This document shows positions 4,249 to 29,602 of a stretch of DNA of 29,865 nt, piece by piece. This stretch comes from a virus. The DNA is taken from IMG/VR virus record IMGVR_UViG_3300037041_000365, positions 1 through 29,865 of that record; one strand, given 5' to 3'. The notes beneath the pieces are model-generated. The model was not told the DNA's origin and made no database searches. It saw nothing but the letters and a program-made list of their open reading frames with translations. Position 1 is the first letter of the stretch; each line of letters opens with the position of its first letter. The translations under genes were made by a program, and so were the position numbers.

Positions 4249-4257
4249 TATAATGGT
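4249..4257 (-). promoter_or_regulatory. ACCATTATA box before the 473-aa tail gene
   Basis: On the minus strand this reads ACCATTATA followed by four bases and the ATG. The same nine bases at the same spacing occur before the starts at 19995, 22528 and 29589. A TAAAACACGAACTT element lies a few bases further upstream, at about 4263-4277. Whether this is a late promoter or a translation signal cannot be told from sequence alone. Confidence 0.6.
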
Positions 4258-4275
4258 GTTTATTAAGTTCGTGTT

Positions 4276-5427
4276 TTAGAAGCTGAAGTAACTATCGTCT
4301 GTGTAGTAATTATCTTTTATGAATCGACCTGCATACTGAATAGCATCCATCGCATCGTCAAATAGTTTGATAGGCTCATCTGTAATTGAATCACCTACTT
4401 TCTTCCATTTGTAGTTCTCGTATTCTCGTTTCAAGTTTGGATTGTCTAGACAGATTACACCGAATGTTTTAACGTTGTCAATACCTTTCTTCACTCCTTT
4501 CGTTGCGTTGTTTATATTGTATCCTGCGATTTGAATCTCTGCTATTATCTCAGGTCTTGAATGGTCACCTAAGATATCAGCATTCTTGTCAACTCCTAAA
4601 TCATTCATTCGTTCTATCAACATTGTAGTAGTCAGATATGATTCATATATTATAGGCTCAACAAATATATCCTTCTCATTCCACCATACCTTCATTAATG
4701 CAGTTGGATGGTTATACCCAAAATCAAGGCCATAGCAGAATGATTCAAACCTAGCAGGTCTTTCTTTAACGAATTGCCAGTTACTATAGATGTTTGTTTT
4801 AGATATCGTCTTTTCGCCTAAAGCATAGATTTGATACAATGCTTCATCTGTTCGTTTCAAGTCTTCTATCTGTCGCTTAATACTATCAGGTAGGAATGGA
4901 TTGTCTTTGTATGTAGATTTGATTAAGATGCTTTCGTCTTCAGGAAGTTCATATAACCAACTTGAACTATCGGAAGGATTGTAGTCGAATATCATTGTAT
5001 TCTCAGTTCTCATATTCAACTGCTGGAAGTCTTCAAACCAAAGTTCATTGGCTTCATTGCACCAACCGATGTCACGCTTTCTTCCTCTAATCTTTTGCTC
5101 GTCATCTACTGAGAAGAACTCGACTATTGAGCCATTACCAAACCGATATATATTCTCAGACTTGTTATGGCTTGTCACCTCATAGATTTCTAAGTCTTTC
5201 ATTATCTCAAAGAAGTCACGCATCACAGTTGCTCTTAAAGCAGGAAACGTCTTTCTAACTATTGACACTACCTTGTTAGGATTCTGTAAACAGTAAACGA
5301 TTATAACTTGACAAAGTGAATAGGTCTTAGATGAACGTGAGCCACCCTGATTAATTATAAACCTAGTAGCCGAATCAGATAAGGCAGTATAATTCTGCTC
5401 AAAGATTTTAGTTGCTTTGATTTCCAC
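4276..5427 (-). CDS. terL: Terminase large subunit
   Basis: The motor ATPase and nuclease that packages DNA into proheads. The 383 aa show a Walker A-type loop GGSRSSKT at residues 28-35 and a Walker B-like segment with catalytic Glu in IGWCNEANE (about 120-128). The C-terminal RNase H-fold nuclease has likely metal-binding acids in GLDFGYNHPTAL (D235), ILGDHS (D288) and DDAMDAIQYA (about 358-361). The length is slightly short for the family but the motif set is complete. The start overlaps the end of the small subunit gene by 20 bp. The Terminase_3/PBSX-like pattern often goes with headful (pac) packaging, but the packaging mode is not shown by the sequence. Confidence 0.95.
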   Translation of the reverse strand: MEIKATKIFEQNYTALSDSATRFIINQGGSRSSKTYSLCQVIIVYCLQNPNKVVSIVRKTFPALRATVMRDFFEIMKDLEIYEVTSHNKSENIYRFGNGSIVEFFSVDDEQKIRGRKRDIGWCNEANELWFEDFQQLNMRTENTMIFDYNPSDSSSWLYELPEDESILIKSTYKDNPFLPDSIKRQIEDLKRTDEALYQIYALGEKTISKTNIYSNWQFVKERPARFESFCYGLDFGYNHPTALMKVWWNEKDIFVEPIIYESYLTTTMLIERMNDLGVDKNADILGDHSRPEIIAEIQIAGYNINNATKGVKKGIDNVKTFGVICLDNPNLKREYENYKWKKVGDSITDEPIKLFDDAMDAIQYAGRFIKDNYYTDDSYFSF

Positions 5428-5824
5428 TTACAATAGTGACTTTGATTTCGTTTATCTTTTCACCTTGAGATGTCACATCTGTTTTCTCAGTAAGTGAATT
5501 TAATCGTTGTGTAATACTTGGATTGAATTGTCCTACCATACCTCCTTCGATTTGGTCTTGACGTATCTTTCTCTTTATGCGTGAACAGATGTTCATATAT
5601 TCATTATAAGCTTCATTCTGATTTACAAAATACTGATGTACAAAACAGATGTTATCTTCACAATAGTTTTCGAATCCTTCCATTGTAAGTGGTGGTGTAT
5701 GAAATTCTGACTTCACTCCTGCTGCAGTTGCTTTCTGTATCTCTCGTGGTTTTAAACTTGATTGATAACCTTGAAATAATTCCCAAAGTTTTTCAGGTGT
5801 TTCTATATACTTATGTTTTGCCAT
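5408..5824 (-). CDS. terS: Terminase small subunit
   Basis: 138 aa, beginning MAKHKYIETPEKLWELFQGY. It resembles small terminase / DNA-packaging proteins: an N-terminal segment 'tPeklwelf', a central helical part with PPLTMEGFENYCEDN, and a basic helix SRIKRKIRQDQIEGGM. It would bind pac or cos DNA and hand it to the large subunit, which follows with a 20-bp overlap. An in-frame ATG at 5872 exists, but the 16 residues it would add are basic and atypical and overlap the preceding gene. The ATG at 5824 leaves a clean 13-bp gap and begins at the family-like Met. Confidence 0.8.
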   Translation of the reverse strand: MAKHKYIETPEKLWELFQGYQSSLKPREIQKATAAGVKSEFHTPPLTMEGFENYCEDNICFVHQYFVNQNEAYNEYMNICSRIKRKIRQDQIEGGMVGQFNPSITQRLNSLTEKTDVTSQGEKINEIKVTIVSGNQSN

Positions 5825-5837
5825 TATTCGTATTTTT

Positions 5838-6029
5838 CTAGTTTTCTTGATAACACATTTCGTGGTACACATTTTGTGTAACTTGATTGAATTCCAATAC
5901 CTTCACATCTGAGTAAAAAACACAGTAAGCAGAATCAGTTGCTTTCAATAGTTTCTTTATCTTGCTCCATTGTTTAGAATGTAACTCTTGATTGATTACT
6001 GCGATATAGTACTTTCTATCCTTTGACAC
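5838..6029 (-). CDS. Small hypothetical protein
   Basis: 63 aa, basic in its first half (MSKDRKYYIAVINQELHSKQ), with two cysteines. No family was recognised. It overlaps the preceding 46-aa gene by 14 bp and sits just before the terminase small subunit, so it belongs to the same transcript. Its length, spacing and overlap support it as a real gene, but nothing indicates its function. Confidence 0.6.
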   Translation of the reverse strand: MSKDRKYYIAVINQELHSKQWSKIKKLLKATDSAYCVFYSDVKVLEFNQVTQNVYHEMCYQEN

Positions 6030-6156
6030 TTTGAATGTAGTTGAATGCTTGATAAAGTAGTTGAATCTGTCTTACATCTGATTTAATAAAGTTTGCATCT
6101 ATCTCTATGTATATTCCTTTCTGTTGAAATATATATTCTTTAACTGATGCTATCAT
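6016..6156 (-). CDS. 46-aa hypothetical protein
   Basis: A short gene found by reading the gap between its neighbours. The ATG is at 6154-6156 and the TAG at 6016-6018. It starts MIASVKEYIFQQKGIYIEID and is probably mostly helical. A purine-rich stretch (AAGAAGAAGTGAA) lies just upstream. It starts 11 bp after the preceding gene stops and overlaps the next by 14 bp, which fits the packed leftward operon. Function unknown. Confidence 0.55.
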   Translation of the reverse strand: MIASVKEYIFQQKGIYIEIDANFIKSDVRQIQLLYQAFNYIQSVKG

Positions 6157-6167
6157 ATAATCGAGAT

Positions 6168-6425
6168 TCACTTCTTCTTAGTTCGTGTTTTTTTCACTAC
6201 TGGTACTTCAATCACTTCTTCTTCCTCATCCAACACATCACTCCACACATACGTTGGTTTAATTGTAGCTTCAGCTTCAAAGATGTGACCTAATCCGTTT
6301 CTTGAATACCAATCGTAATGCTTTGGTAGTATTTTATCAATGATAACATTCTGATTGCCTAGAACACTATTATACACTATTACAGTTTTGCCTTTATACT
6401 CCTCCTTTATTTGCATTTTTCTCAT
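6168..6425 (-). CDS. Small hypothetical protein with Lys/Arg-rich tail
   Basis: 85 aa. The N-terminal two thirds (MQIKEEYKGKTVIVYNSVLG) suggest a small beta domain. An acidic stretch (DEEEEV) follows, and the end is strongly basic (KKTRTKKK), so it could bind nucleic acid. A second Met at residue 4 is an alternative start. It overlaps the upstream membrane microprotein by 32 bp. No family recognised; similar charge-segregated small proteins occur near terminases in other phages, but this is only a resemblance. Confidence 0.6.
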   Translation of the reverse strand: MRKMQIKEEYKGKTVIVYNSVLGNQNVIIDKILPKHYDWYSRNGLGHIFEAEATIKPTYVWSDVLDEEEEVIEVPVVKKTRTKKK

Positions 6426-6564
6426 ATTCGTTTATTAATAAAAATATTATATGACTAAGAATCGCAGCAGCTATAAACTTATTCTGATATTCGTAATCGT
6501 TCCATATTGCTACAGTCATTCCAATAGATAGAACAAATGTCGTTAATGCTATCCATCTACTCAT
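6394..6564 (-). CDS. 56-aa two-helix membrane protein
   Basis: A short gene with ATG at 6562-6564 and TAA at 6394-6396. It has two hydrophobic segments, residues 4-20 (WIALTTFVLSIGMTVAI) and about 31-44 (IAAAILSHIIFLLI), joined by a polar loop, and ends with charged residues. It starts inside the last codons of the sigma-like gene (8-bp overlap), behind an AAAACACGAACT ... ACCATT sequence like those before structural genes. A holin or anti-holin role is possible but it lies far from the lysis genes; function unknown. Confidence 0.55.
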   Translation of the reverse strand: MSRWIALTTFVLSIGMTVAIWNDYEYQNKFIAAAILSHIIFLLINEYEKNANKGGV

Positions 6565-7093
6565 AATGGTCTTTTTGTAGTTCGTGTTTTAATCGTCTTA
6601 AATCTGATTTCATTTCTGTAATCATTGCGTGTGCAGTAAATACCGATATATTAAAATGGTCTGCTATGCTTCGTGTGGTGTTATATCCTTTGTCGTGATA
6701 TGTCTCAAAGAAGATAAGTTTGATTCTGTCATCTACTGTATTGCGATATATTTCAATAACTGACTTCTGCTCTTGATAGTTCAATTCAAATAGAATCTTA
6801 TCTTTCAATTCATCTTCAGCTTCTTCAATAGGCATATTATTTTCTACACTATTGACTATCTCTATCTTGCTATTAGTATCTCTAAATAGTAACTCACATT
6901 TGATAAAGTGAAATAGAAAATCTTTAACGTTTCCGTATTTAAACTTTGATTCGTTTTTTAAACAGTTCAGATAAGCATTTGAGATGACAGTATCTACTTC
7001 AATACGTATTTTTATACGATTTAAAAGATACATTGTGTATTTCTTAACATCAATGTAGTGATGTTGCAGGTATCTATCCAGTGAGTCCTTCAT
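6557..7093 (-). CDS. Sigma-70-like regulatory protein (candidate)
   Basis: 178 aa, all-helical in appearance. The N-terminal ~80 residues have the spacing of a sigma region 2-like bundle (DVKKYTMYLLNRIKI, DTVISNAYLNCLKN, VKDFLFHFIKCELLF). The C-terminal part has a helix-turn-helix-like stretch TTRSIADHFNISVFTAHAMI at about 139-158, as in region 4. Several Bacteroidota phages carry such proteins just upstream of the terminase genes, so this could switch transcription to the late genes that follow. The similarity is weak and a non-sigma DNA-binding role remains possible. It overlaps its upstream neighbour by 20 bp. Confidence 0.55.
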   Translation of the reverse strand: MKDSLDRYLQHHYIDVKKYTMYLLNRIKIRIEVDTVISNAYLNCLKNESKFKYGNVKDFLFHFIKCELLFRDTNSKIEIVNSVENNMPIEEAEDELKDKILFELNYQEQKSVIEIYRNTVDDRIKLIFFETYHDKGYNTTRSIADHFNISVFTAHAMITEMKSDLRRLKHELQKDHYE

Positions 7094-7280
7094 ACCAAAT
7101 AAAAAAGTCCTTAATAAATATCTTTCGTCTTACCATTGAACAGAAACAATCTTTGCTTTTGATTCCGTTCACTCTTGAATAGATAGCATCTAACTTCTTA
7201 CAGGTCAATTTAGCAGTTTGAATAGTTGAATCTGCTATCTTGATTGATTCGATGTAATCTAGTTCATCTTGCTCAAACAT
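7074..7280 (-). CDS. Small hypothetical protein with cysteines
   Basis: 68 aa from the ATG at 7278-7280 (MFEQDELDYIESIKIADSTI). A longer frame starting at 7316 exists, but its 12 extra residues are encoded by an imperfect repeat and overlap the preceding gene more deeply, so the shorter form is preferred. It has three Cys residues (TCKK, CFC) and a basic C-terminal half. It overlaps the DUF1360-like gene by 22 bp and the sigma-like gene by 20 bp. No family recognised. Confidence 0.55.
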   Translation of the reverse strand: MFEQDELDYIESIKIADSTIQTAKLTCKKLDAIYSRVNGIKSKDCFCSMVRRKIFIKDFFIWYEGLTG

Positions 7281-7507
7281 AACGATGTGATGTAAGTTAA
7301 TAACGATGTGATACAAGCAAATGAAAAACTACCTGAGTAAATTAAACCACTCCAAAATCCCATACATTTGAAACAACCTAACCCCGAATACACCCAATTG
7401 CTTAAAAAGTTAATCGGAATGTACTCAAAAATAGCATCAATCACAAATTGAATAGGCTCAAATTCTACAAACCACCAAGCAAAAGCGACAATAATTAAAT
7501 ACTCCAT
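7259..7507 (-). CDS. DUF1360-like membrane protein
   Basis: 82 aa with hydrophobic stretches at residues 1-12 (MEYLIIVAFAWW) and near the C-terminus. A central GLGCFKCMGFW segment with a Cys-x-x-Cys pair looks like the short DUF1360-type proteins common in Bacteroidota phages. The family is membrane-bound and its function is not established. A -7 box (TATATTTG, 7523-7530) lies 16 bp upstream of the ATG, so this may be the first gene of a middle or late transcript that includes the sigma-like and terminase genes. Confidence 0.7.
   Translation of the reverse strand: MEYLIIVAFAWWFVEFEPIQFVIDAIFEYIPINFLSNWVYSGLGCFKCMGFWSGLIYSGSFSFACITSLLTYITSLCLSKMN
7281..7312. repeat. Direct repeat AACGATGTGAT x2
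   Basis: The 11-mer occurs at 7281-7291 and again at 7302-7312. On the minus strand the first copy ends directly at the ATG at 7280. If the longer start at 7316 were used, the repeat would encode HIV and HHIV. Possibly a small duplication in the translation start region. Confidence 0.6.
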
Positions 7508-7522
7508 GATGTTTTGTTTTTA

Positions 7523-7530
7523 CAAATATA
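7523..7530 (-). promoter_or_regulatory. Possible Bacteroidota -7 box (TATATTTG)
   Basis: On the minus strand TATATTTG matches TAnnTTTG and lies 16 bp before the start at 7507, in the gap 7508-7577. No TTG is found at the usual 19-21 bp upstream, so only half the consensus is present. The position between the early and late-packaging genes makes it worth noting. Confidence 0.4.
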
Positions 7531-7577
7531 CTGCTTAATTCAATACGTTCTACTGTGGTGGCTAGTTTAGAATGATT

Positions 7578-7775
7578 CTAGATAGTGGTTACTATACCAT
7601 CCGAGTTACCAGCCCAAATAGCTCTATCAATATCATCTTCAACTTTATATTTAAATTGAATCATTTGCTTATCGAACTCTTTACCGTAAGATAATAAAGT
7701 TCTGATTTCATTTCTTTGTTCTGATAATCTTTTATTAAGCCTTTCTATTTCGGCTATTAGTTCTTTCTTCTTCAT
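7578..7775 (-). CDS. Small coiled-coil protein
   Basis: 65 aa. Residues 1-28 (MKKKELIAEIERLNKRLSEQ) have heptad spacing typical of a coiled coil; the remainder is acidic and polar. No cysteines or catalytic motifs. Stand-alone coiled-coil proteins of this size are frequent in early phage regions and usually have no known job. It is the last gene of the early group before the 70-bp gap holding a possible promoter. Confidence 0.6.
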   Translation of the reverse strand: MKKKELIAEIERLNKRLSEQRNEIRTLLSYGKEFDKQMIQFKYKVEDDIDRAIWAGNSDGIVTTI

Positions 7776-7782
7776 AGGTTAA

Positions 7783-7944: not shown

Positions 7945-7958
7945 CTATTTACGGATAT

Positions 7959-8042: not shown

Positions 8043-8076
8043 AATTTAAGTATTTTTATCGTTAATTAAGCATTTT

Positions 8077-8595: not shown

Positions 8596-8601
8596 TGTTA
8601 T

Positions 8602-12608: not shown

Positions 12609-13288
12609 CTTAAAATTGTTTTTAATTGGTTATAATATTGACGAGCCACCTTGACACGTTCAATTATCTTTGCTTGTGCTTCTTCGTCTTTTTGCACAAT
12701 AAATCTTTTAATTCTTAATTCATTCGGTATTTGGTCAAAGTTATGTGAAAGCTGAACTGCATCTCTTACATCTAAATCTTCATCAATTAAATGTAACTTC
12801 CAGTGTTCACGTCTTACTTCATCTTCAACTATCTCAAATGGTGTATTCATTAGACAATAAACAAGTTCACTAGTATCGTGATTCGTTAGCATTAAATAAC
12901 CTTGTAATTGCCACCAGTACTCTTTATTTTTTAAAGTAGAATCAAACATCGGAAACGTGCTACCGTTCCAACTGCATTTAATATCTGCTAAAAGATTATC
13001 TGTGCAAATGTCAGGCTCTCCAGTTAACCATTCGTTATTAAATCTCGTTTCGTTCTTTACTACAAAATCCCATTTAAGAACTTCTGATGCAAATTGTATG
13101 GCTTCATCTTCCATTTGTATACCTTTGTCCGTATAACGGCTTGAGAAGTCTTTATATATACCTAATTCTTTCTCTTTGAATACATCTTGAATGTATGTCT
13201 TTGCAGTTTCAGATAGTACTTCTGATTTTGTTCTTGCGTCTGTCATCAGCTTTCCTAGTGATGAACATCTAAATAATAATTCGCTCAT
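12605..13288 (-). CDS. YqaJ/lambda-exonuclease-type recombinase nuclease
   Basis: 227 aa. The PD-(D/E)XK pattern of the YqaJ family is visible: early CSSLGKLM, then a Glu-rich helix (GIQMEDEAIQFA), GEPDI at the first metal-binding Asp, LADIKCSW with the D-x-K motif, and a YWWQLQGYL helix with the family's conserved Gln and Tyr. Such enzymes resect double-strand ends for a partner annealing protein. The ERF gene lies directly upstream with a 4-bp overlap, completing a two-protein recombination pair. Confidence 0.85.
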   Translation of the reverse strand: MSELLFRCSSLGKLMTDARTKSEVLSETAKTYIQDVFKEKELGIYKDFSSRYTDKGIQMEDEAIQFASEVLKWDFVVKNETRFNNEWLTGEPDICTDNLLADIKCSWNGSTFPMFDSTLKNKEYWWQLQGYLMLTNHDTSELVYCLMNTPFEIVEDEVRREHWKLHLIDEDLDVRDAVQLSHNFDQIPNELRIKRFIVQKDEEAQAKIIERVKVARQYYNQLKTILR

Positions 13289-13818
13289 AATAATTTTATT
13301 GCTGCTTTTTGTAACTCAGTTAATTCAAATTGATTCAAGTCTGAAACTTTAGCTTTGCCTTCAGATATTGCAGTTAATGCTTTTTCAAATCTTTCTTGTG
13401 GCATTGTAGGTTTCTTGTTAACGTGTTTAGTAACATCGTTGGCATCATCATCTTGCATAGATAAAGATAATAAAGATTGAAGTGTGTAACGTCTAAAATA
13501 CGAAATACAACCTCCTAACTTCTGTGGGTCGTTTAACTCAGGTAATTTAATTTCAGCATTAATATCTTCTCCAGTTTCAATGTCAACTATTACACTATGC
13601 ACACATCCATTCATAATAGGTTGTAATAGAAGTAAATTGTATTTATGTAGTATCGGTTCAACTACATCTAGAATAGTATTTAAATCAGCATATTTCGATT
13701 TAAAAAATGGATTATCAGCAGACTTGTTAATCTTACCGATTTCTTGTTTAGCTAAATGTAGCTTAAAATAAATTCCGTTTGGTCTTGGAATTGCGTCTTC
13801 AAATGTTTCGTTTTTCAT
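13285..13818 (-). CDS. erf: ERF-family single-strand annealing protein
   Basis: 177 aa. Conserved ERF features are present: NPFFKSKYADLNTILDVVEP near residues 37-56, then ISYFRRYTLQSLLSL and a DDDAND acidic motif at about 106-128. ERF proteins pair complementary single strands and in P22 help circularise the genome. The downstream exonuclease would supply the single strands. A -7 box TACATTTG sits at 13843-13850 and the leader AAACAAAATG matches that of the gene at 15170. Confidence 0.88.
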   Translation of the reverse strand: MKNETFEDAIPRPNGIYFKLHLAKQEIGKINKSADNPFFKSKYADLNTILDVVEPILHKYNLLLLQPIMNGCVHSVIVDIETGEDINAEIKLPELNDPQKLGGCISYFRRYTLQSLLSLSMQDDDANDVTKHVNKKPTMPQERFEKALTAISEGKAKVSDLNQFELTELQKAAIKLL

Positions 13819-13842: not shown

Positions 13843-13850
13843 CAAATGTA
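13843..13850 (-). promoter_or_regulatory. Possible -7 box (TACATTTG) before erf
   Basis: TACATTTG (TAnnTTTG) on the minus strand, 25 bp before the ATG, within the 47-bp gap following the DnaA-like gene. The upstream TTG is missing. Leader bases down to the ATG resemble those before the gene at 15170. Confidence 0.4.
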
Positions 13851-15200: not shown

Positions 15201-15230
15201 CAAATATATGTACAATGTTTAGAACTACAA
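15201..15230 (-). promoter_or_regulatory. Early promoter P2 (TTG - 19 bp - TATATTTG)
   Basis: On the minus strand TTG (15230-15228) and TATATTTG (15208-15201) are separated by exactly 19 bases, matching the Bacteroidota primary-sigma consensus. It lies 31 bp before the first early gene. Probably the main early promoter. Confidence 0.75.
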
Positions 15231-17322: not shown

Positions 17323-17377
17323 AAATGTATAATATAGTAACTAAAATGTACTTAATTTGTTACAAATGTATAATATA
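17323..17377. repeat. 14-bp direct repeat AAATGTATAATATA
   Basis: Copies at 17323-17336 and 17364-17377, 41 bp apart (start to start), in the 67-bp gap between holin-like and spanin-like genes. The second copy overlaps the -7 box at 17363-17370; the first has a near-match (TACATTTA). Confidence 0.7.
17363..17370 (-). promoter_or_regulatory. Possible -7 box (TACATTTG) before the spanin gene
   Basis: TACATTTG on the minus strand, 53 bp upstream of the spanin-like start. No TTG at 19-21 bp. It may provide extra expression of the lysis genes. Confidence 0.4.
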
Positions 17378-19639: not shown

Positions 19640-19995
19640 TAATCGTATATTGTGTTTGTTACTACTCCTGCAACTACCATTCTTCCTTCTTCTACTACAC
19701 TTAGAGTGCTATAATAATCTATAGCTTGGTCTACAATGACAATAGGATTCGCAGATTCGTAAACAGTATATGTAAATTGTCCAATTACAAAAGTTGCATC
19801 TACACCTTCTGTTAATTCGAATAAGTTATATCTTTCTATGTAAGCTGAAGTATCTGTACCCATCCATTGAAAGCCTTGTGAATCTTTGTTAAATTCATTT
19901 TGGAAAAGAAACAGATAGTAAGGATTCGTAATAGTAGAAGTCTCAGTCAAAGTGAGAACAAAAGTATTTACAGAATCTTTTTCTAAGTATATCAT
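19639..19995 (-). CDS. Small structural protein of unknown function
   Basis: 118 aa, beta-rich, starting MIYLEKDSVNTFVLTLTETS and containing NPYYLFLFQNEF. This is a pattern I recall from Bacteroidota phages and prophages next to head or tail genes, with no established role. The ACCATTATA box lies four bases before the ATG, as at three other structural genes. It is the first gene after the terminator following the tail tube candidate. Confidence 0.65.
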   Translation of the reverse strand: MIYLEKDSVNTFVLTLTETSTITNPYYLFLFQNEFNKDSQGFQWMGTDTSAYIERYNLFELTEGVDATFVIGQFTYTVYESANPIVIVDQAIDYYSTLSVVEEGRMVVAGVVTNTIYD

Positions 19996-19999
19996 ACTA

Positions 20000-20008
20000 T
20001 ATAATGGT
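20000..20008 (-). promoter_or_regulatory. ACCATTATA box before the 118-aa structural gene
   Basis: Same nine bases and same four-base spacing to the ATG as at 4249, 22533 and 29594. Located 25-30 bp downstream of a terminator, so a promoter role is plausible here because new transcription would be needed. Confidence 0.6.
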
Positions 20009-20033
20009 TATTAATTACCGTTTGTTATAAAAC

Positions 20034-20061
20034 AAAAAACCCCCACTAATTAAAGTGAGGG
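20034..20061 (-). terminator. Terminator after the tail tube candidate
   Basis: On the minus strand CCCTCACT-TTAATT-AGTGGGGG is followed by TTTTTTG; the stem has one mismatch. It begins about 20 bp after the stop at 20083. Confidence 0.85.
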
Positions 20062-20082
20062 TAGGGATAGCAAAGTTTACTT

Positions 20083-20592
20083 TTAAACTAGTAAACCTGC
20101 AATAATAGTAGGGTCAACTTCGTATGCTAAAGATTCGTTTTCAGCAACCATCGTTATACTGTATTTTGAGCCATCGGCCTTCGCTGTTCCACTTCCTTCA
20201 GCTACTGCAGTAACTTGTGCAGTTGGAAAATACCAGTACTTACCGTTAGCATCTAAAACGATTACTGCTAAGTCTCTTTGTCCTTCTCCTAAGATTTTGA
20301 TAGAACGAGATTTTGCAGCTTCACGTCTGTGAAACATAAGTGTGATAGTTGCAGTTACAAAAGATGAGCCATTGATTAAATCATTAGCTTGGTCTTCTGT
20401 GTACATTCCTGTGTTTCTTTTAAACTCAAAAGGCACGAATGGTGCAGTTTTAGTTATTGCAGTCACTTCCCAGTTAGCATCGTTTACAGTAACTGCAGTT
20501 ACTTCGCTTTGGTCGTTTATGAATACTGTTTGAATACCACCGATATTATTGTCGCATCCTTTGGTTATTGTCGTTATTGTATTACAAGGCAT
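20083..20592 (-). CDS. Major tail (tube) protein (candidate)
   Basis: 169 aa, beta-rich (MPCNTITTITKGCDNNIGGI at the start; YSITMVAENESLAYEV near the end). It has the length and character of siphovirus tube subunits, and the 'kGCdnN-gGi--v-i-d' opening is typical of predicted tube proteins in Bacteroidota phages. It has its own terminators before and after, giving an independently dosed transcript that fits a protein needed in many copies. A head decoration protein is the main alternative, because the gene follows the capsid. Confidence 0.6.
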   Translation of the reverse strand: MPCNTITTITKGCDNNIGGIQTVFINDQSEVTAVTVNDANWEVTAITKTAPFVPFEFKRNTGMYTEDQANDLINGSSFVTATITLMFHRREAAKSRSIKILGEGQRDLAVIVLDANGKYWYFPTAQVTAVAEGSGTAKADGSKYSITMVAENESLAYEVDPTIIAGLLV

Positions 20593-20606
20593 TTCGTTTA
20601 TGTATT

Positions 20607-20637
20607 AAAAAAGGGGTGATGTTTATTGCACCACCCC
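20607..20637 (-). terminator. Terminator after the major capsid gene
   Basis: On the minus strand GGGGTG-GTGCAATAAACAT-CACCCC is followed by TTTTTT. The stem is six G/C-rich pairs. It lies between capsid and tube candidate genes. Confidence 0.85.
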
Positions 20638-20658
20638 TCTCTAGTTAGTAATTAATTC

Positions 20659-21576
20659 TTAAGAATAAAGAACGATTTCTGTTGGGTTAGTATACCAAAA
20701 TCCAACTTTCAAGTTAGCACGAGTTCTCAAATATGGCTCAGCAACTGTATCATTCAAGTTTACTGCTCTTAATGCTTTAGCATCAGATTCAGAATCGAAA
20801 GCATAAATCAAGTTATTCTTCAAAGTAAGAACTGCAGTATTGTTAGGAAGACCTTCAGCAACTACCATCTTGATACCCAAGAAAGTTAAAGCAAGAGGAA
20901 TAGTAACAAATGTTTGAGTGTTACCTTGTGCAGCAGCTAATTCATAAGCAGTAGCAATGTTAGAAGAAACATAAAATCTTAAGTCAGCTTTCTTACGTTT
21001 AATTGAAGCAGGAGCAGCATTCAAAATAGCAGTTAATTGTGCGATAACGTTTGTTGCATCAATAGATACATTAGCAACATCAACTACTGCAGCATCAGCT
21101 AACAATCTCTTAAGATAACCATCGCATAAAGAAAGCAAAGCATCTACAGAATCAGTATCACCATTCCATCTCAACAACTCAACATCTTCGCCAATTTGCA
21201 TTGACATAGTTTCCCAGTAGTAAGACATAAAACTAGCAACTTCAAAACTTCCGTTAGAACCTGCAGCCATCTGCAAAGAAAGGAAAGACTGCTCTAAATC
21301 GAATTGACAAATTTGAGCCATTGCAGATAATGCACATACGTCAATATCAATAGCATCTAATGAATCAGTTGGTGCAGAGAAAGCACAAGTACTAGATTGT
21401 AAGATAGAGCCAAAAGTAACGTTAGCTAATTTTGTAGCTGATTTAATACCCGGCAAAGTTCTGTAGTTGTCTACAATATCTTCAGTAATATACGCACGAG
21501 AATAAAACTCGTTAGGGTTAGCACATAAAAGTGCGTTTGTTTCAATATCTAAATTGAATTTTAAGTTTCTTGACAT
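20659..21576 (-). CDS. Major capsid protein
   Basis: 305 aa (MSRNLKFNLDIETNALLCAN ...), with alternating helix and beta segments and a stretch SIKRKKADLRFYVSSNIATA as in capsid P-domain and A-domain regions of HK97-fold proteins. It lies directly after the protease/scaffold gene (4 bp gap) and before a strong terminator, the normal setting for the capsid gene. Ala-rich composition and balanced codons, with visible C-preferring positions compared with the early genes, suggest high expression. The call rests mainly on context and size. Confidence 0.8.
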   Translation of the reverse strand: MSRNLKFNLDIETNALLCANPNEFYSRAYITEDIVDNYRTLPGIKSATKLANVTFGSILQSSTCAFSAPTDSLDAIDIDVCALSAMAQICQFDLEQSFLSLQMAAGSNGSFEVASFMSYYWETMSMQIGEDVELLRWNGDTDSVDALLSLCDGYLKRLLADAAVVDVANVSIDATNVIAQLTAILNAAPASIKRKKADLRFYVSSNIATAYELAAAQGNTQTFVTIPLALTFLGIKMVVAEGLPNNTAVLTLKNNLIYAFDSESDAKALRAVNLNDTVAEPYLRTRANLKVGFWYTNPTEIVLYS

Positions 21577-21580
21577 TTTT

Positions 21581-22528
21581 TTAGTCTTTATTAAATTGGT
21601 TAAACTTCATTAATTTTTCGTGAGCAGTTAATTTTTGCTCGGTAACATCCGTCACTTCTTCTTCAAGTGTTGGAATCATTGCTTTTACTTCTGCAATAAG
21701 TTGAATAAGTTCGTTGTATTTTTCATCGATTGTAGGCATAACGATTGCTAGGATAGCTTCAGCATCTGCAGTTGGGTCAACAGACATTTCTGCTTCTTCG
21801 ACAACTACTTCTTCTTCTACTACTTCTTCAGTCATTACCACCTCTTCTTCAACTACTTCTTCAGCTACTACTTCAGTTGCAGGTGCATCTTTCACTTCAA
21901 CAATTTCTCCATCTGTTACAACGTAGATTTTGCCTTCAATCAGATGTTCTCCATCAGGTAAATTCATACTATTATTTATTATTTGATTACTGTTTAATTT
22001 CAATCCTAAGAATCCTTCAATAGAGAATCCTAACTGCTCACTTTCAACTAGCTTATTGTAATACTCTTTGTCGGTAATTTGAGCAGTCAACATCAATGTT
22101 CCTTTAGGTACTTCAATACCATAAGAACTAAATGCTTTATCTTCTCTAGGACTCTCCACAATCCAACTTTCAAGAATGTATGCTGGTACTGTTTGCCCTG
22201 CATCGTGTTCTAAGTTGAATAAGTTCTTGTTGTTTAGATTCTGCATAAAGTCGGAGTAGATTGTTTCAATCTCTTGTTCAGAAAATTGAACGTAATATTC
22301 TCCTTCTTCATCGTTTCTATAAATATCCATTGGAATCATAGCAGGTGCTACAATTCTCATCTTTGGCTCATCAGCAAACTGCATTACTTTAGTGTGACTA
22401 TTAAAAGCCATACCTTTGACTAAGATAGCAGGTTTAGAAGTGAATGCGACCTGTTCTATTCCTAGTACTTCACCATCAGAATATTCTTCGTCAATCGTAA
22501 CTTTAAAAATAGGAATATCATTCGCCAT
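21581..22528 (-). CDS. XkdF-like prohead protease fused to a scaffold-like tail
   Basis: 315 aa. The N-terminus VAFTSKPAILVKGMAF and the central LEHDAGQTVPAYILESWIVE plus LGFSIEGFLG match the XkdF-type phage serine protease, with His 108 and Ser 169 as likely catalytic residues. Residues ~205-315 are Glu/Val-rich repeats (such as EEVVEEEVV) and coiled coil, resembling a scaffold. The protein would guide capsid assembly and then cleave itself and the scaffold. It directly precedes the major capsid gene. The ACCATTATA box marks the start. Confidence 0.82.
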   Translation of the reverse strand: MANDIPIFKVTIDEEYSDGEVLGIEQVAFTSKPAILVKGMAFNSHTKVMQFADEPKMRIVAPAMIPMDIYRNDEEGEYYVQFSEQEIETIYSDFMQNLNNKNLFNLEHDAGQTVPAYILESWIVESPREDKAFSSYGIEVPKGTLMLTAQITDKEYYNKLVESEQLGFSIEGFLGLKLNSNQIINNSMNLPDGEHLIEGKIYVVTDGEIVEVKDAPATEVVAEEVVEEEVVMTEEVVEEEVVVEEAEMSVDPTADAEAILAIVMPTIDEKYNELIQLIAEVKAMIPTLEEEVTDVTEQKLTAHEKLMKFNQFNKD

Positions 22529-22532
22529 ACAT

Positions 22533-22541
22533 TATAATGGT
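22533..22541 (-). promoter_or_regulatory. ACCATTATA box before the protease gene
   Basis: Identical nine-base element four bases from the ATG. It lies in the 60-bp divergent region shared with the plus-strand genes, where new leftward transcription must begin, which supports a promoter function. Confidence 0.6.
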
Positions 22542-22567
22542 ATATGTTTTTTTTTGTTATATTTTTG

Positions 22568-22575
22568 TATATTTG
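22568..22575 (+). promoter_or_regulatory. Possible plus-strand -7 box (TATATTTG)
   Basis: TATATTTG on the plus strand lies 13 bp before the ATG at 22589. It would give a nearly leaderless transcript for the only two rightward genes. A TTG at 22554-22556 is 11 bases upstream, short of the usual 19. Confidence 0.5.
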
Positions 22576-22588
22576 TCAAAAAAACGTT

Positions 22589-23146
22589 ATGATAAAAATC
22601 GGAACTAAAAAGATTAACAATGAAGTTACTGAACTGACTATTGAACAGTTTGAGAAACTTAGTACAACGATCAACAATAAAGAACTTGACCAGTTTGAAA
22701 AATGGGCAAAGATATTCATTGACTTAGGAGCAGATGAAGATGAAGTATATGATTTAGACTTTGACAAGTTTACAGAAATTGTAAAGAAATTTTCTGATAC
22801 TAAGAAAAAGCCTGATACAAAGTTTTTAAAATCAATTGAAGTAGATGGTTATACTTACCAATCTTATGAAGATGAGTTTAAATTGAATGTGCGTGATCTA
22901 AAAATGATTGAAAAAGCAGTATCTACAAGTCCTGAGAATTATGTATCTAAAGTTTTGGCTATTATTTTTAAAAGAACTGACTTGACAAAAGCTGAACACT
23001 ACGGTGATTCACATCTTGCATTAAAATCAAAGATGTTTAAAGAGCAAAAAGCAAATATTGCCATTCCTTTTATGGTTTATATTGGCGAAAAGTTAGGTAC
23101 TACTGCTAAAAATATGCAAGTTGAAGCTGCCGAAGTCGTGGAATGA
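22589..23146 (+). CDS. Tail assembly chaperone-like protein, first of pair (candidate)
   Basis: 185 aa from the ATG at 22589 (MIKIGTKKINNEVTELTIEQ). An upstream in-frame ATG at 22544 would add 15 hydrophobic residues encoded by the promoter region and is rejected. The segments 'TIEQFEKL', 'DFDKFTEIVKKFSDTKKKP' and 'FKRTDLTKAEHY' have counterparts in the next gene, so the two look like diverged duplicates. A short/long pair overlapping near the short protein's end is the hallmark of siphovirus tail assembly chaperones. The pair is on the opposite strand to every other gene. Confidence 0.55.
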   Translation: MIKIGTKKINNEVTELTIEQFEKLSTTINNKELDQFEKWAKIFIDLGADEDEVYDLDFDKFTEIVKKFSDTKKKPDTKFLKSIEVDGYTYQSYEDEFKLNVRDLKMIEKAVSTSPENYVSKVLAIIFKRTDLTKAEHYGDSHLALKSKMFKEQKANIAIPFMVYIGEKLGTTAKNMQVEAAEVVE

Positions 23147-23855
23147 TATAAGTGTCGAACAGTTCATTGAATTAAGGTCGCTAAATGGTAGTGACTTTGA
23201 TTCTTTGTTTAGTTATGAAATAGAATGCTTATCTATTTTAACAGATATTGATGTAGATGAGTTTGATGATATGGATATTGACGAACTAGCAAAGATTGTT
23301 AAACAGATTACATTCATAAAAAAGCAACCATCAGGTATTTTTAAGAATAAAGTAAACAGTTTTGTTTATATTGGATTAGATAATTTAAAGTTAGGCGAGT
23401 TCATTGATTTGGAATACTATTTTGCTAATGACTATGTTAAGCACTTGACTTATATTAGTTCAGTTTTGTACCGTAAAACTAAACTTAGCGAATGGGAAGA
23501 ATTGATTTATGAAGATTATTCGTTTGATATTGAGAAACGCAAAGAACAGTTTAACGAGTTGCCTATTACATCAGTCTACGGAATATGCTCCGAATACATG
23601 AAGTATCGTGAGAACTTCTTAAAAGTGTATGAAAATCTATTCAATCCAATCTTTGATGAAGATGAACTAGCAGAAGAACTAGATGAAGAAGATATCAAAG
23701 AACAAGAACAAGAAGATAAAATTAATAGATGGAGTTGGGAGCATACGTTGTATAATTTAGCTAACGAAGATGTTACTAAAATAAAAGACGTACTGGAGTT
23801 GAATCTAGTATTTGCTTTTAATATGTTAGGAATGAAAAAAGAACTAGAGATTTAA
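23121..23855 (+). CDS. Tail assembly chaperone-like protein, second of pair (TTG start or +1 frameshift)
   Basis: 244 aa if started at TTG 23121 (then KLPKSWNDISVEQFIELRSL); no ATG fits. The frame is open from 23097 and is +1 relative to the upstream gene, which ends at 23146. It may be made by reinitiation at TTG, or as a +1 fusion, for example at AAA AAT (23108-23113) where tRNA-Lys can re-pair perfectly. Paralogous segments: VEQFIEL, DIDELAKIVKQITFIKKQP and YRKTKLSEWEEL. The acidic insert and C-terminus are unique to this copy. Its stop codon overlaps the convergent gene's stop. Function by analogy only. Confidence 0.5.
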   Translation: MKLPKSWNDISVEQFIELRSLNGSDFDSLFSYEIECLSILTDIDVDEFDDMDIDELAKIVKQITFIKKQPSGIFKNKVNSFVYIGLDNLKLGEFIDLEYYFANDYVKHLTYISSVLYRKTKLSEWEELIYEDYSFDIEKRKEQFNELPITSVYGICSEYMKYRENFLKVYENLFNPIFDEDELAEELDEEDIKEQEQEDKINRWSWEHTLYNLANEDVTKIKDVLELNLVFAFNMLGMKKELEI

Positions 23856-24605: not shown

Positions 24606-26840
24606 TTATGCTAAAATACCTAAATTTCTTAATGCTTTTACTACTTGTCCAATTGTGTATCCGTCAAATGTAGCCGTATCATTTGCTATTAAAGATGTGT
24701 TTGTTACAAATGTTGAAGCTGCTCCACCCGTAGCTTGCTGATATAGTTTAATAATATTTCCGTTTTCAGTTCTAAAATGAGGCGCTGCGTTTCCAGCTAC
24801 AATGTCAGCGGAGTATTGCTGAAATGAATCTACGACATTTGTTGAAGGAATAGATGCGTGATTTCTCACAACAAGAGTATTACCTCCGTTACCCATAAAA
24901 GTGTCAGTTCCATATATTCCCGTACCATTTCCTAAGATATAAGCACCTTGACCAAGCAATCCAAAAGAACCATTTGCCCTTGTTAATGTAGATGAATTGT
25001 CACTATTAAAATAAGTCATAAATACATCATCTGCACTTATATTATTTCCAAAATTACCCTTCCTACCTAAATGTATAGACCTTGTTCCAGAATAAGTTGT
25101 TGCACCTCCTGTGTTACCTATAACAATAGTATCTGTGCCTGATGTTTTTGCTCTATCTCCAATTGCAATACCTCCTGCTGAATTAACTACTGTACTGAAT
25201 CCAATAGCAATACCAAATCCTGCTGATGCTCCAGTTGATGCACTATTACCAATTACTGTATTATAAGAAGTTGCATTAGTAATTGAAGCATTTTGACCAA
25301 ATGCAATAGAACCATTTCCACTTGATGAATATCTAATTATTGAATCAGTTGTTCCTGCAATATATATAATGTTTTGATTGTTAAATGCGGCTTGTGGGAT
25401 ATACATTTCACCATTACCTCTAACACTAAATAAATCAACCGTATCAGCACTATTCCTAACCCTAAAAGCTATGTCAGTTGATAATGCTCCTTGGGATTGT
25501 ACGTCTAATCTTGCAGATGGTGTTCTACCTATTCCAAAAAAGTTACCACTTAGTAATGTATAATTTGAACCATTTCTTTGGCGAATTTGACCTCCAGTTG
25601 CTTCGATGTCCCAACCTCCCGAACCTCCGTTAAGGTTATTAAATCCACTGCTATTTAAAAGTATTGATTGATTTGTACCCCCTCTTAATGTTGCTCTTGC
25701 GCTTCCTGACGGGTCTATTATTAAAGTAGGTGATGAACTTGCATTAACACCAATAATAGCTAAACCATTACCCGATACATAAGCTAAATTATCTGTATCT
25801 CCACTATTACGAACTCTAAACGCTATGTCAGTAGCTGCTGTACCAACTGCTTTTAATGTCAATCTTTTTAATGTATTATCCCAGAACAAAGCACTATCTT
25901 GCTGAACTACATCTCCCGTTCCTTGAAAAAATACTCTTCCAACAGTTCCCGAAGTAACCGCAGTTGTTCCTACTGCTATTGCACCACCACTAATAACCAA
26001 GTCACCACTACCTAGTAATGAATTACCGTTTATTGTTTTAATATTTGTAGCACTTACTAAAGTAGGTTGTATTCCTGCAGTACTTAAACTTTCATTTTTC
26101 CAAAGCGAAGTCGCAGAATCGTACTGTAAAATATTATTATCTGCTACCGAAGTAATAGAAACGTTATGAAGTTCTTGAAGTTCAAAACCGTTTTGTACTC
26201 TTACAAATATCTCACCGTTGCTTACGTTTGCTCTCGTTACTATTCCAATAAATACCAAGTGTGCAGGTGCAGCAGGTTTGTTAATCAATCCGTAGATTAA
26301 GTTACCATTTGTACCTAACCAAACTGGGTCTCCTGCAGTTGCTGAAGAAGTATTTAACCCTGCTAAAAGACCTTCAGTAATTACAGTGCCTTTTTTATTA
26401 ATTGCTAAGGTTTCAATAATTAAACCCATCGTTTTAGACGAAGTAGCTTCAGTTACATTGGATGCTTTAGATACAATCATATTAGTACCATCTGCACTAC
26501 TTACATATACTGCTTGACCTTTTGTCATTGCCTCACCTGCTTTAACTGCGTGTTGAAGTGTTGATGCAGTTGCTGCAATAGTCCAAGACCTATCTGCACT
26601 TAAATCGTATGTAGTACCGTTTATAGTTAGATTTCTAGTATCAGGAACTAATCCTGCTATTGAAGGAATAGAAGGTAAATTATCTAAATCATTATAGTCT
26701 CCAGTAGTTGCAACTGTTGCTAAATCAGCACTATTTGCTTTCAATGCTAAAGCATCAAATACAGCGTTACTTGTTACAGGGTTTAAACTACCATCTGTAA
26801 CGGCATCTTCTATTGGTATATTTATATCTATTATTGCCAT
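24606..26840 (-). CDS. Large tail fibre-like protein with YadA-type head repeats
   Basis: 744 aa. The start MAIIDINIPIEDAVTDGSLN and 'NPVTSNAVFDALA' motif are common in fibre N-termini. Residues ~80-260 form a domain with GEAMTKGQAVYVSSADGTN. Two similar segments of the form TDIAFRVRNS(G/A)DT occur at about 340 and 455. Residues ~510-600 show YadA/hia-type repeats (NTVIGNSASTG, GIAIGFSTVV, GIAIGDRAKT, TIVIGN), which form trimeric beta-rolls. It is likely a trimeric host-binding or decorating fibre. No C-terminal intramolecular chaperone (S74) motif was seen. It overlaps the next upstream gene by 10 bp. Confidence 0.75.
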   Translation of the reverse strand: MAIIDINIPIEDAVTDGSLNPVTSNAVFDALALKANSADLATVATTGDYNDLDNLPSIPSIAGLVPDTRNLTINGTTYDLSADRSWTIAATASTLQHAVKAGEAMTKGQAVYVSSADGTNMIVSKASNVTEATSSKTMGLIIETLAINKKGTVITEGLLAGLNTSSATAGDPVWLGTNGNLIYGLINKPAAPAHLVFIGIVTRANVSNGEIFVRVQNGFELQELHNVSITSVADNNILQYDSATSLWKNESLSTAGIQPTLVSATNIKTINGNSLLGSGDLVISGGAIAVGTTAVTSGTVGRVFFQGTGDVVQQDSALFWDNTLKRLTLKAVGTAATDIAFRVRNSGDTDNLAYVSGNGLAIIGVNASSSPTLIIDPSGSARATLRGGTNQSILLNSSGFNNLNGGSGGWDIEATGGQIRQRNGSNYTLLSGNFFGIGRTPSARLDVQSQGALSTDIAFRVRNSADTVDLFSVRGNGEMYIPQAAFNNQNIIYIAGTTDSIIRYSSSGNGSIAFGQNASITNATSYNTVIGNSASTGASAGFGIAIGFSTVVNSAGGIAIGDRAKTSGTDTIVIGNTGGATTYSGTRSIHLGRKGNFGNNISADDVFMTYFNSDNSSTLTRANGSFGLLGQGAYILGNGTGIYGTDTFMGNGGNTLVVRNHASIPSTNVVDSFQQYSADIVAGNAAPHFRTENGNIIKLYQQATGGAASTFVTNTSLIANDTATFDGYTIGQVVKALRNLGILA

Positions 26841-27463
26841 ACTACATTAATTGTTTCATCTATTAAACTTGGTACTGTTACACTTGTTGTTACTCCGTTC
26901 ACTATAAAATTATAAGTTGTATCATGTAAAATTAATAAACCACCACTTGCTACCGTTGTTAAATATGTACCATCACTATTTGTTACCGTTGCATCTTCAC
27001 AAACAATAGGAGGATTTGGAGAAATTGGATTCATTGGAATAGCACAGCTTCCGTAACTTGCTACTTCAAATGTAATACTCATAACCCAACCTGCAACATA
27101 ATCTAAATCAAGATTGTTTAACGGTGACATAGTTGCACTACCGACAACATCTATCTCAACATCGTTGTCATTGGTGTAGTAAACATACATATCTTTTAAT
27201 ATCAACTGACAATCAGATATAATATTATTAAGATTTGCCCTATCAGCTTGTATTAAATCAACACAATAGATGTCTACAGTAAATTGATTCGTGTTTAAAT
27301 TCTCTGTATCACTTGTTGGTGTAACAAATACTACTGGATACTTCTCATCTATTGTAGCGAAGTTAGGCATTTGCTCTCTGAATTCTCCTCCGTACTTTTT
27401 TATCTGTAGGTGAGCATTGCAGAAGGCTTCTATTTTATTTAATAGTGATTTATAGCTTGTCAT
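26831..27463 (-). CDS. Tail protein, possible tail terminator with Ig-like C-terminus
   Basis: 210 aa. The first ~140 residues (MTSYKSLLNKIEAFCNAHLQ, IKKYGGEFREQ, VDIYCVDL, DCQLILKDMYVYYT) resemble a tail-terminator/tail-completion domain. The last ~60 residues (CEDATVTNSDGTYLTTVASG, TTYNFIVNG) are a beta-domain that I recall at the ends of several Bacteroidota phage tail proteins. It overlaps the tape measure gene by 4 bp and the fibre gene by 10 bp. Confidence 0.6.
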   Translation of the reverse strand: MTSYKSLLNKIEAFCNAHLQIKKYGGEFREQMPNFATIDEKYPVVFVTPTSDTENLNTNQFTVDIYCVDLIQADRANLNNIISDCQLILKDMYVYYTNDNDVEIDVVGSATMSPLNNLDLDYVAGWVMSITFEVASYGSCAIPMNPISPNPPIVCEDATVTNSDGTYLTTVASGGLLILHDTTYNFIVNGVTTSVTVPSLIDETINVVWQ

Positions 27464-29589
27464 AGTACTGCCGATTGTTGAATTTTACTCATTTTATTTT
27501 GAACAGAAGTAACATCTGATTCTACTACTATTGCTTTAACCACCATTTGACCACCTTGTTGTTGACCATTTGCTCCAAACGTATTAGCATTGTTATTAGC
27601 ACCGAATAGATTAACGTTAGGAGTAGCTGCTTGTGTAGAAGTGTTTGAATCAGTTGGTGCATTCATAGCAGGTGGAGCAACAGAACCACCACCTCCACCA
27701 CCATATTTAGTAGATGCGATTTTTGCTACGTTTGCTGCGGCAAATATACCTGCACCTGCTGCATAGATAGCACCAGTTGCGGGGCCTAACAATGGTATAG
27801 GATTAGACATACCATTTCTAAATGCTGCGATTGTAGCTCGTATTCCTTCAACTGTTGCAGAAGCTATTGATATTGCTTTATTAATATTGAATTGTCTTTT
27901 TGCTCTTGCTTCAACTGCTTTCACATCTTGGTTTCCCAAACTATTAGTGACTGCAAATATGTTTTGTGCTAATCCATTTACTGAGTCTGTAAACTCTTTT
28001 GCAATTGCTAGTTTAGCATCTGTAACTTTTCTTTGTGCAGCTAAGTCAATCTCAGCATATTTAGCATCAATCTCAGCAAGTTTTATTTTAGTTTGTTCAG
28101 CTACAAATATCTCTGCATCTGCACTACTTCCTAATGCTAATAAATCTGCTTCACTCTTTTCAACTAAATCAGCTACTTCTTTTTCTTTAGCAGTTTGATT
28201 CGCTGCTTCTTTCATTGCCCAAAGTAAATCTTGTTGCTCTATTTGTTTAGCTGCTATTGCTGCATTCTTTTCTTTTTCTTTATCAATCTCTTTTTGATTA
28301 ATCTTATCTCTTGCATCTCCTGCTAACAGACCATACATTTCAATAAGTTTAATATTTTCTTCTTGTTCTTTTTTTGTATGTGTAGTTTTCTCATTATATT
28401 TATTTTGAGTATCCTCAATTAATCTATTATAAGCAATTTGAGAAGCCTTCAATTCTTTTTTAACTCCTTCATCCATTAACTGCATATCCAAATCTTGATA
28501 CATTCTTGCTGCTGCTAATCTATCTGCTTGGTATTTTTTTTCTGCTTCAACTTTTTTATCATTAATTTCTTTTTGTTTATCTGCATTTGATTTAGCATTT
28601 TTAGAATTCTCGTCTGATTGTTTTTTAGCTTCATCTTTTTTTCTGTTAGCTTCAGTCTTATCAATTACTTCAATCTGATGCATAGAATCTTTGACTACTT
28701 CTCTTTGCTCGTTATATGATTTTCTTAAAGCTAAAATCTCTTCTTCATCTAAATCACCACTCAATCGTGCAGCTATCATCTTCTGCTTAATTGCTTCTAG
28801 TCTTGCAGCAGCAGTTTTTAATAGCCAGTACTGCTTTTGCTTTTCCATATAAACAGTATTCTTACCATCAAGTTTAGCCATCTCGATTTCTCTATCGAAA
28901 CCATTAACTACTGACTTGCTTTTTTCTTCGTATGCTGCTGCAGTTTTCTCTGCTGCTGCTGCTTGTTTATCTGCTGCATCTTCTGCTGCGTTATTAGATA
29001 AACCTAACCAATCACACAAGTCTTTGAATGCTTGAACAACCATATCAATAGCATCACCAATCCATCCGAATACTTTACCTACTGCATTAAGTATTGGCTT
29101 TAAGATTCCAAGTTTATTCATTACTAAAGCAATGACTGCGACAATGGCTACAATCGCAGCAACTAATAAAAATATAGGATTCGCTAATAATGAAATACCA
29201 AACTGAATGAAGGCTTTAGTTAAACTACCAACAACTGAAATTAAACCTTTAATACCATTACCAATCGTTGCAGGTGAGATACTTCCTAATGTTTGTTGAA
29301 ACATCTTAGCCTTTCCTGCAGCCTCTTCAAAGTCTAGCGACATCAAAGAATCTTTCATACTGCCGAATGAATTGCTTACCTGCTCAAACTTACTACCTGA
29401 TGCGAATACTGCTACTTGTTCATTAGCATCTGCAAGTTGGTCTTTCAGTTCACCTGCTCTCATAGCAAGTTCCTGCATTTGTTTCGGGTCTGTTGCATTA
29501 GCAAGTTCTCCTTTCAACTCACGAAGTTCTGCTTTAATAGCTGCTAGGCCATTTAACTTTATAGGAATCTCAATCGGTGTTGCTGCCAT
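27460..29589 (-). CDS. Tape measure protein
   Basis: 709 aa. The N-terminal helical part contains ELRELKGELANATDPKQMQE, typical of tape measure starts. A hydrophobic region with two or three membrane-like helices lies at residues ~112-165 (for example PIFLLVAAIVAIVAVIALV). Long charged, Ala/Lys/Glu-rich coiled coil runs to ~545, followed by a second hydrophobic and Gly-rich segment (KISIASATVEGIRATIAAF type, YGGGGGGSVAPP). This composition is diagnostic. By the usual ~0.15 nm per residue the tail would be about 100 nm long (inference). The ACCATTATA box precedes the ATG. Confidence 0.88.
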   Translation of the reverse strand: MAATPIEIPIKLNGLAAIKAELRELKGELANATDPKQMQELAMRAGELKDQLADANEQVAVFASGSKFEQVSNSFGSMKDSLMSLDFEEAAGKAKMFQQTLGSISPATIGNGIKGLISVVGSLTKAFIQFGISLLANPIFLLVAAIVAIVAVIALVMNKLGILKPILNAVGKVFGWIGDAIDMVVQAFKDLCDWLGLSNNAAEDAADKQAAAAEKTAAAYEEKSKSVVNGFDREIEMAKLDGKNTVYMEKQKQYWLLKTAAARLEAIKQKMIAARLSGDLDEEEILALRKSYNEQREVVKDSMHQIEVIDKTEANRKKDEAKKQSDENSKNAKSNADKQKEINDKKVEAEKKYQADRLAAARMYQDLDMQLMDEGVKKELKASQIAYNRLIEDTQNKYNEKTTHTKKEQEENIKLIEMYGLLAGDARDKINQKEIDKEKEKNAAIAAKQIEQQDLLWAMKEAANQTAKEKEVADLVEKSEADLLALGSSADAEIFVAEQTKIKLAEIDAKYAEIDLAAQRKVTDAKLAIAKEFTDSVNGLAQNIFAVTNSLGNQDVKAVEARAKRQFNINKAISIASATVEGIRATIAAFRNGMSNPIPLLGPATGAIYAAGAGIFAAANVAKIASTKYGGGGGGSVAPPAMNAPTDSNTSTQAATPNVNLFGANNNANTFGANGQQQGGQMVVKAIVVESDVTSVQNKMSKIQQSAVL

Positions 29590-29593
29590 ATAA

Positions 29594-29602
29594 TATAATG
29601 GT
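29594..29602 (-). promoter_or_regulatory. ACCATTATA box before the tape measure gene
   Basis: Identical element and spacing as at 4249, 20000 and 22533, preceded by TAAAACACAAGTTC (about 29609-29623), almost the same as the TAAAACACGAACTT upstream of 4249. Confidence 0.6.

Follow-up and report, generated by a model that had tools for sequence, protein, structure and literature searches.

The present analysis concerns a short repeated element, and a 178-amino acid (aa) sigma-like protein that may read it, in the 29,865 nucleotides (nt) of an uncultured phage, IMG/VR virus record IMGVR_UViG_3300037041_000365, taken at full length and hereafter called the window. The nine-base motif ACCATTATA, followed after four bases by ATG, has exactly four copies in the window, always on the minus strand (0 in 100 shuffles), and matches to ACCATTATANNNNATG lie on that strand at 4242-4257, 19993-20008, 22526-22541 and 29587-29602 (0 in 100 dinucleotide shuffles). 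As a sequence-only reading of this DNA had claimed, all four copies stand directly 5' of the ATG of structural genes: those for a 473-aa tail protein, a 118-aa protein, a protease (Peptidase_S78_2 match; XkdF-like phage protease) and a tape measure, the last assigned from tape-measure matches; the shorter form which it placed at the 6564 start is also there, as ACCATTATG. The motif forms the downstream part of an element with two blocks, [ATG]AACA-N16/17-ATTATA-N4-ATG, whose upstream block, AAAACA or ATAACA, keeps a set distance from the downstream one: AACA-N17-ATTATA is found at 4249, 20000 and 29594, N17 leads to ATTATG at 6564, and the spacer is N16 at 22533. A second block 8-12 bases upstream had been described at 4249, 29594 and 6564; the block is real (AAAACACGAACT or AAAACACAAGTT), but its distance from ACCATTAT is exactly 8 nt in each case, and the sites at 20000 and 22533 carry the shorter equivalent ATAACA, 17 and 16 nt respectively 5' of ATTATA. 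One extra AAAACACGAACT, within the gene at 6168-6425, is without an ATTATA block and was left out of the count.

Table 1. Features of the window, with promoter assignments as predicted from sequence
Feature	Position (strand)	Details
ECF-type sigma-like protein, 178 aa	6557..7093 (-)	proposed reader of the late promoters
Putative late promoter, 473-aa tail gene	4245..4279 (-)	CTAAAACA 4279-4272, 17-nt spacer, ATTATA 4254-4249, 4 nt, ATG 4244
Putative late promoter, tape-measure gene	29590..29624 (-)	TTAAAACA 29624-29617, 17-nt spacer, ATTATA 29599-29594, 4 nt, ATG 29589
Putative late promoter, 118-aa gene (portal operon)	19996..20030 (-)	TTATAACA 20030-20023, 17-nt spacer, ATTATA 20005-20000, 4 nt, ATG 19995
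Putative late promoter, protease gene (capsid operon)	22529..22562 (-)	ATATAACA 22562-22555, 16-nt spacer, ATTATA 22538-22533, 4 nt, ATG 22528
Putative fifth, altered late promoter, in sigma gene 3' end	6562..6592 (-)	TTAAAACA, 17-nt spacer, ATTATG; ATG of 56-aa open reading frame overlaps -10 block
Host-type element TATATTTG	7523..7530 (-)	15 nt 5' of ATG 7507, 82-aa gene heading the sigma-gene cluster
Host-type element TATATTTG	22568..22575 (+)	divergent rightward gene, ATG 22589; back to back with the protease late promoter
Host-type element TACATTTG	13843..13850 (-)	24 nt 5' of ATG, Erf-like annealing (recombination) gene 13285-13818
Host-type element TATATTTG	15201..15208 (-)	30 nt 5' of ATG 15170
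Host-type element TACATTTG	17363..17370 (-)	52 nt 5' of ATG 17310
Hairpin + T run, rho-independent-terminator-like	20039..20062 (-)	directly 5' of the 118-aa promoter; -14.3 kcal/mol, z -2.76

When the window was scanned with a two-block weight matrix trained on its relatives only, the four main sites and the 6564 site made up the top five (23.1, 21.2, 20.7, 19.9 and 16.6; next 11.5); the maximum over 20 shuffles was 17.2 and the mean best 13.0, the four main sites (19.9-23.1) lying above all shuffles. The 6564 site, at 16.6, does not by its own score rise above the range of the best shuffle; what supports it is that it is conserved in the relatives. The low GC content (27-36%) and the mild over-representation of ACCATTAT alone (5 observed, 1.36 expected) would suit a repetition arising by chance in an AT-rich genome, but the full pattern never appears in shuffles and is conserved at orthologous genes across clades; chance, rejected on the shuffles, the weight-matrix ranking and the spacer enrichment and gene-class distribution given below, has in our judgement practically no claim to be the explanation.

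A protease search of IMG/VR yielded 80 loci, from which 28 related contigs were fetched, and the counts that follow are made on 29 contigs, the window included. The regions upstream of the 80 protease loci are conserved in clade-specific forms. In the related contigs (clade labels A-D were assigned in the present analysis) the sites have the sequence TAAAACACGAA...C[CT]ATTATAAGATATG in clades A and C, TAAACATTGACG...TCATTATAGTTATG in clade B and TAAACATTT...TTAATATAATAGTATG in clade D, and orthologous genes retain the element across clades whose proteases are 58-98% identical. Between [ATG]AACA and A[TA]TATA the spacer is enriched solely at 16 nt (39 against 9.8 in shuffles) and 17 nt (84 against 14.6), counts which are not independent events because many contigs are closely related; spacers of 14, 15 and 18-20 nt are at background. 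Blocks 15-19 nt apart and enriched over shuffles are the mark of a two-element promoter of the sigma70 family, and 16/17 nt is the spacing of bacterial -35 and -10 elements. The element could instead be an operator, that is, a repressor or activator site for a late regulator near a promoter that went unrecognised, since regulator sites also typically have directly repeated conserved blocks; this we regard as highly improbable, for the element is not palindromic, a spacing of 16/17 nt and an AT-rich downstream block are what a core promoter would show, and no other promoter-like excess was found in 19800-22700, the stretch scanned around two of the sites. There, E. coli-type sigma70 promoters were rejected as candidates, 10 being found with 10.2 expected.

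The distribution among gene classes is that of a phage late promoter: the element stands at 90 of 106 late-block starts (473-aa gene 18/25, tape measure 18/26, 118-aa gene 25/26, protease 29/29), at 0/132 operon-internal late starts (capsid, portal, terminase, 169-aa and 210-aa genes) and at 0/60 early starts, so that the claimed absence of the motif from early genes extends to the relatives, in which a scan for the motif had been called for. Copies of the 473-aa and tape-measure genes without the element belong mostly to more distant clades, and some have it at a neighbouring gene. The host seems to belong to the Bacteroidota, as judged from promoters of the TAHHTTTG type in the window; bacterial genomes searched with the sigma or the terminase gave no match by which to name it. 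As an alternative to a promoter, the sequence-only reading had offered a translation enhancer for a host that does not use Shine-Dalgarno pairing, the bases 5' of ATG recruiting ribosomes, to which the near-fixed distance of the block from ATG (3-5 nt) lends some weight, as does the finding that Bacteroidota tune initiation by the sequence just 5' of ATG (PMC6847099). As the sole explanation a pure translation enhancer was rejected, and we consider it very unlikely: about 32 nt upstream stands an AACA block whose distance from ATTATA is fixed at 16/17 nt, the gap between block and ATG ranges over 3-7 nt among relatives and the spacer does not vary likewise, the element is absent from the operon-internal capsid and portal genes and from those of other abundant late proteins, and one site comes after a terminator-like hairpin. 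An added role survives, in that the motif site may matter for translation too, given the leaderless geometry discussed below.

The 178-aa protein was modelled with AlphaFold from an alignment of 54 sequences, with a mean predicted local distance difference test score (pLDDT) of 77.6 and a predicted template-modelling score (pTM) of 0.42. The model has helices at 2-26, 32-45 and 55-68, a poorly predicted linker at 72-90, and further helices at 92-118, 122-132, 139-146 and 150-176, the last four finishing in a helix-turn-helix; it is thus, as a predicted model only, laid out like the extracytoplasmic function (ECF, group 4) sigma factors, with sigma2 and sigma4 joined by a flexible linker and no sigma3. 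Foldseek against the PDB returned sigma factors at nearly all listed ranks, mostly ECF (best E 2e-3, probability 1.00), and the C-terminal domain superposes on sigma-E region 4 bound to -35 DNA (2h27) with a TM-score of 0.72 at 2.4 A, full-length TM-scores being low because the domain arrangement is uncertain. Searches by sequence were poorer: nothing useful was obtained from the PDB or from PHROGs (one sigma match, E 0.067), and 50,697 phage records searched by tblastn with the sigma gave marginal, unannotated matches only. A viral library search did return annotated phage ECF sigmas, including that of phage GAP52, a relative of phage 7-11; the relative of 7-11 gp47 in GAP52 is only a weak structural match to the 178-aa protein. 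With no curated Pfam sigma match, the protein is termed ECF-type by its fold and is assigned to no named ECF group. A profile search detected the sigma gene in all contigs that extend to its position; its apparent loss from seven contigs was rejected, these contigs ending before the sigma region.

A test of the pairing between protein and element is offered by a distant lineage, represented in IMGVR_UViG_3300042523_000132 (G006, 33379 bases) by a block from a distant phage with a sigma 22-23% identical. None of 13 loci of this lineage has ACCATTATA; its 118-aa, protease and tail-block genes carry AACA...CTACATATA or GTACATATA shortly 5' of ATG, so that at homologous genes CTACATATA takes the place of CCATTATA, the AACA block being kept and the -10 block altered. 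A -10 block which changes where the phage sigma has diverged is the pattern expected if the phage protein reads that block. Alternatively, the reader of the same late promoter might be a sigma of the host, either housekeeping or ECF, aided by an activator from the phage, and the 178-aa protein might be this activator or serve another role; its Pfam matches, all sub-threshold and to helix-turn-helix families only, would agree with this, and the host may have several ECF sigmas. The predicted fold, however, has sigma2-like and sigma4-like domains, the late motif is unlike TAHHTTTG, and the block is altered together with the phage sigma, which leaves the host-sigma explanation unlikely, if the most credible of the alternatives. 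G006 itself has two late modules and two portal-like genes, and joins head genes of clade A to the tail, terminase and sigma genes of the distant phage; its distant part shows the CTACATATA form of the promoter, and the contig is probably a recombinant or an assembly chimera.

The two-block element, its spacing and gene distribution, the sigma-like predicted fold and the co-divergence make up the sequence basis on which we consider it very likely that the motif belongs, as its -10-like half, to a late promoter specific to the phage and roughly of the form TW[AT]AACA - N16/17 - (C)CATTATA - N3-5 - ATG, read by the phage-encoded, ECF-type 178-aa sigma; together with the presence of the sigma gene and the terminator-like hairpin just 5' of one site, they favour what the sequence-only reading had put forward, a late promoter read by the sigma-like protein at 6557-7093. 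Binding by the sigma, late timing, the start sites and leaderless translation are what we infer from them. Host RNA polymerase with its housekeeping sigma would transcribe the early genes, including the cluster with the 178-aa sigma gene, from TAHHTTTG promoters, and the phage sigma would then steer the host core polymerase to late promoters heading the blocks from the 56-aa open reading frame to terL, from the 473-aa gene onward, from the tape measure onward, of protease and capsid, and of the 118-aa gene and portal; the four main promoters would initiate at the A of ATG or next to it, and their mRNAs would be leaderless.

Phage-encoded sigmas with their own promoters are known from Salmonella phage 7-11 (gp47, bipartite late promoters GTAAtg-16-aCTA) and from phiEco32 (gp36, promoters tAATGTAtA), transcription starting 6-9 nt from the element in both (PMC8948821). 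The system proposed here resembles that of 7-11 in its phage-encoded sigma of similar length (gp47 has 185 aa and is annotated as similar to ECF sigma), in bipartite late promoters with spacing of about 16 nt heading structural blocks, and in host-sigma early promoters; it differs in promoter sequence, in start position, the starts of 7-11 not lying on ATG, and in host, that of 7-11 being enterobacterial. Homology between gp47 and the 178-aa sigma was not detected by hhalign (E 0.34 over 16 columns). With phiEco32 it shares a phage sigma and an AT-rich -10-like element resembling CATTATA, but the phiEco32 promoter is single-element and gp36 is without region-4 homology, whereas here there is a second, invariant block, AACA, and the predicted fold includes a region-4-like domain. 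Bacterial ECF (group 4) sigmas such as E. coli sigma-E and M. tuberculosis sigma-H are alike in the predicted two-domain layout, the Foldseek matches and the 16/17-nt spacer; the 178-aa protein, unlike them, is phage-encoded and without Pfam-level similarity, and its -10 block is AT-only. The invariant AACA bears a likeness to the AAC core of ECF -35 elements. The Bacteroidota promoter (TTTG / TAHHTTTG) has in common with the late element an inferred start 4-5 nt after its downstream element (PMC6847099); its sequence is different and it is used here by early genes and by the divergent rightward gene, not by late blocks. Compared with 7-11 and phiEco32, the sigma, the motif and the start-codon geometry are different, the last not being reported for either (PMC8948821), and the proposed working principle is alike.

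At nearly all sites the -10-like block ends 3-5 nt 5' of ATG (7 nt in a few relatives), close to the roughly 4-6 nt between a -10-type element and ATG in leaderless promoters. Motif-bearing starts are almost always ATG, whereas terL starts with GTG in the window (5427, minus strand) and in many relatives; leaderless initiation generally favours AUG, which this difference fits. In Flavobacterium johnsoniae transcription starts 4-5 nt after the TAHHTTTG consensus, and leaders exceed 10 nt in 87% of predicted transcripts (PMC6847099). If the polymerase starts likewise 4-5 nt after its -7 element, the starts of the four main promoters would lie on or beside the A of ATG, and the late messages from them are probably leaderless, starting at the start codon. 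That the phage group switches translation mode along with sigma, with leadered early mRNAs made by the host sigma and a leaderless first gene in each late operon, is to our mind an even bet; if true, late messages would have an initiation route of their own in a phylum without Shine-Dalgarno sites and with mostly leadered mRNAs.

Several points weigh against a late promoter read by the phage sigma. The whole-protein Foldseek E value is only 2e-3 and the pTM 0.42, so the domain arrangement of the model is uncertain, and no Pfam match to sigma70 region 2 or 4 was found in the 178-aa protein, its sub-threshold matches being to Mga, UPF0122 and other helix-turn-helix families. The apparent co-divergence is correlative, and a single distant lineage is a thin test. 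Were transcription to start 6-9 nt after the element, in the manner of 7-11 and phiEco32, the ATG would be cut off; since a start inside or after the ATG would bar translation of conserved proteins, the geometry must be that of Bacteroidota unless the functional element is placed a little further upstream. Finally, at the 6564 site of the window the element shares bases with the start codon that it would be expected to serve: the ATG of the 56-aa open reading frame is part of the -10 block, and both lie in the 3' end of the sigma gene. At the equivalent place in clades B and C there is a standard promoter, with a gap of 3-4 nt to ATG; the clade A site may serve genes further down to terL, or may be altered. 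The 3' end of the sigma gene (6557-6564, 6592-6562) combines its last codons with the late promoter and overlaps the next open reading frame, an arrangement kept in clades A, B and C.

Neither this promoter nor this sigma was found described in open-access titles and abstracts, which is weak evidence of novelty. The analysis predicts a transcription programme for a phage group which occurs in many IMG/VR contigs but to which the phage collection searched holds nothing closely related, and it proposes a function for a protein family overlooked by curated libraries. Matched sigma and promoter pairs of different clades would be material for studying the joint divergence of a sigma and its -10 element, and the late messages, if indeed leaderless, an unusual system in which to test how Bacteroidota select start codons.

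The host-type promoters of the window stand 13-52 nt from their ATGs, and TAHHTTTG lies within 60 nt of the 82-aa gene in 12 of its 22 copies. A terminator-like hairpin with a T run also directly precedes the 169-aa late gene (20083-20592), where no late promoter follows the hairpin, so that this gene may depend on read-through. The sole rightward genes, two overlapping open reading frames of 184 and about 244 aa at 22589-23855 (+), lie between the protease and tail genes; their placement and overlap are reminiscent of the pair of tail assembly chaperones that arises through frameshifting, and the 184-aa first frame has no PHROG match. Circular closure by joining the window ends is not claimed, the 943-aa frame running into a stop just past the junction. 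Contigs G003, G004 and G029 are longer than one genome unit, and the same genes recur in them about 29.7-29.9 kilobases apart, which puts the unit near the length of the window.

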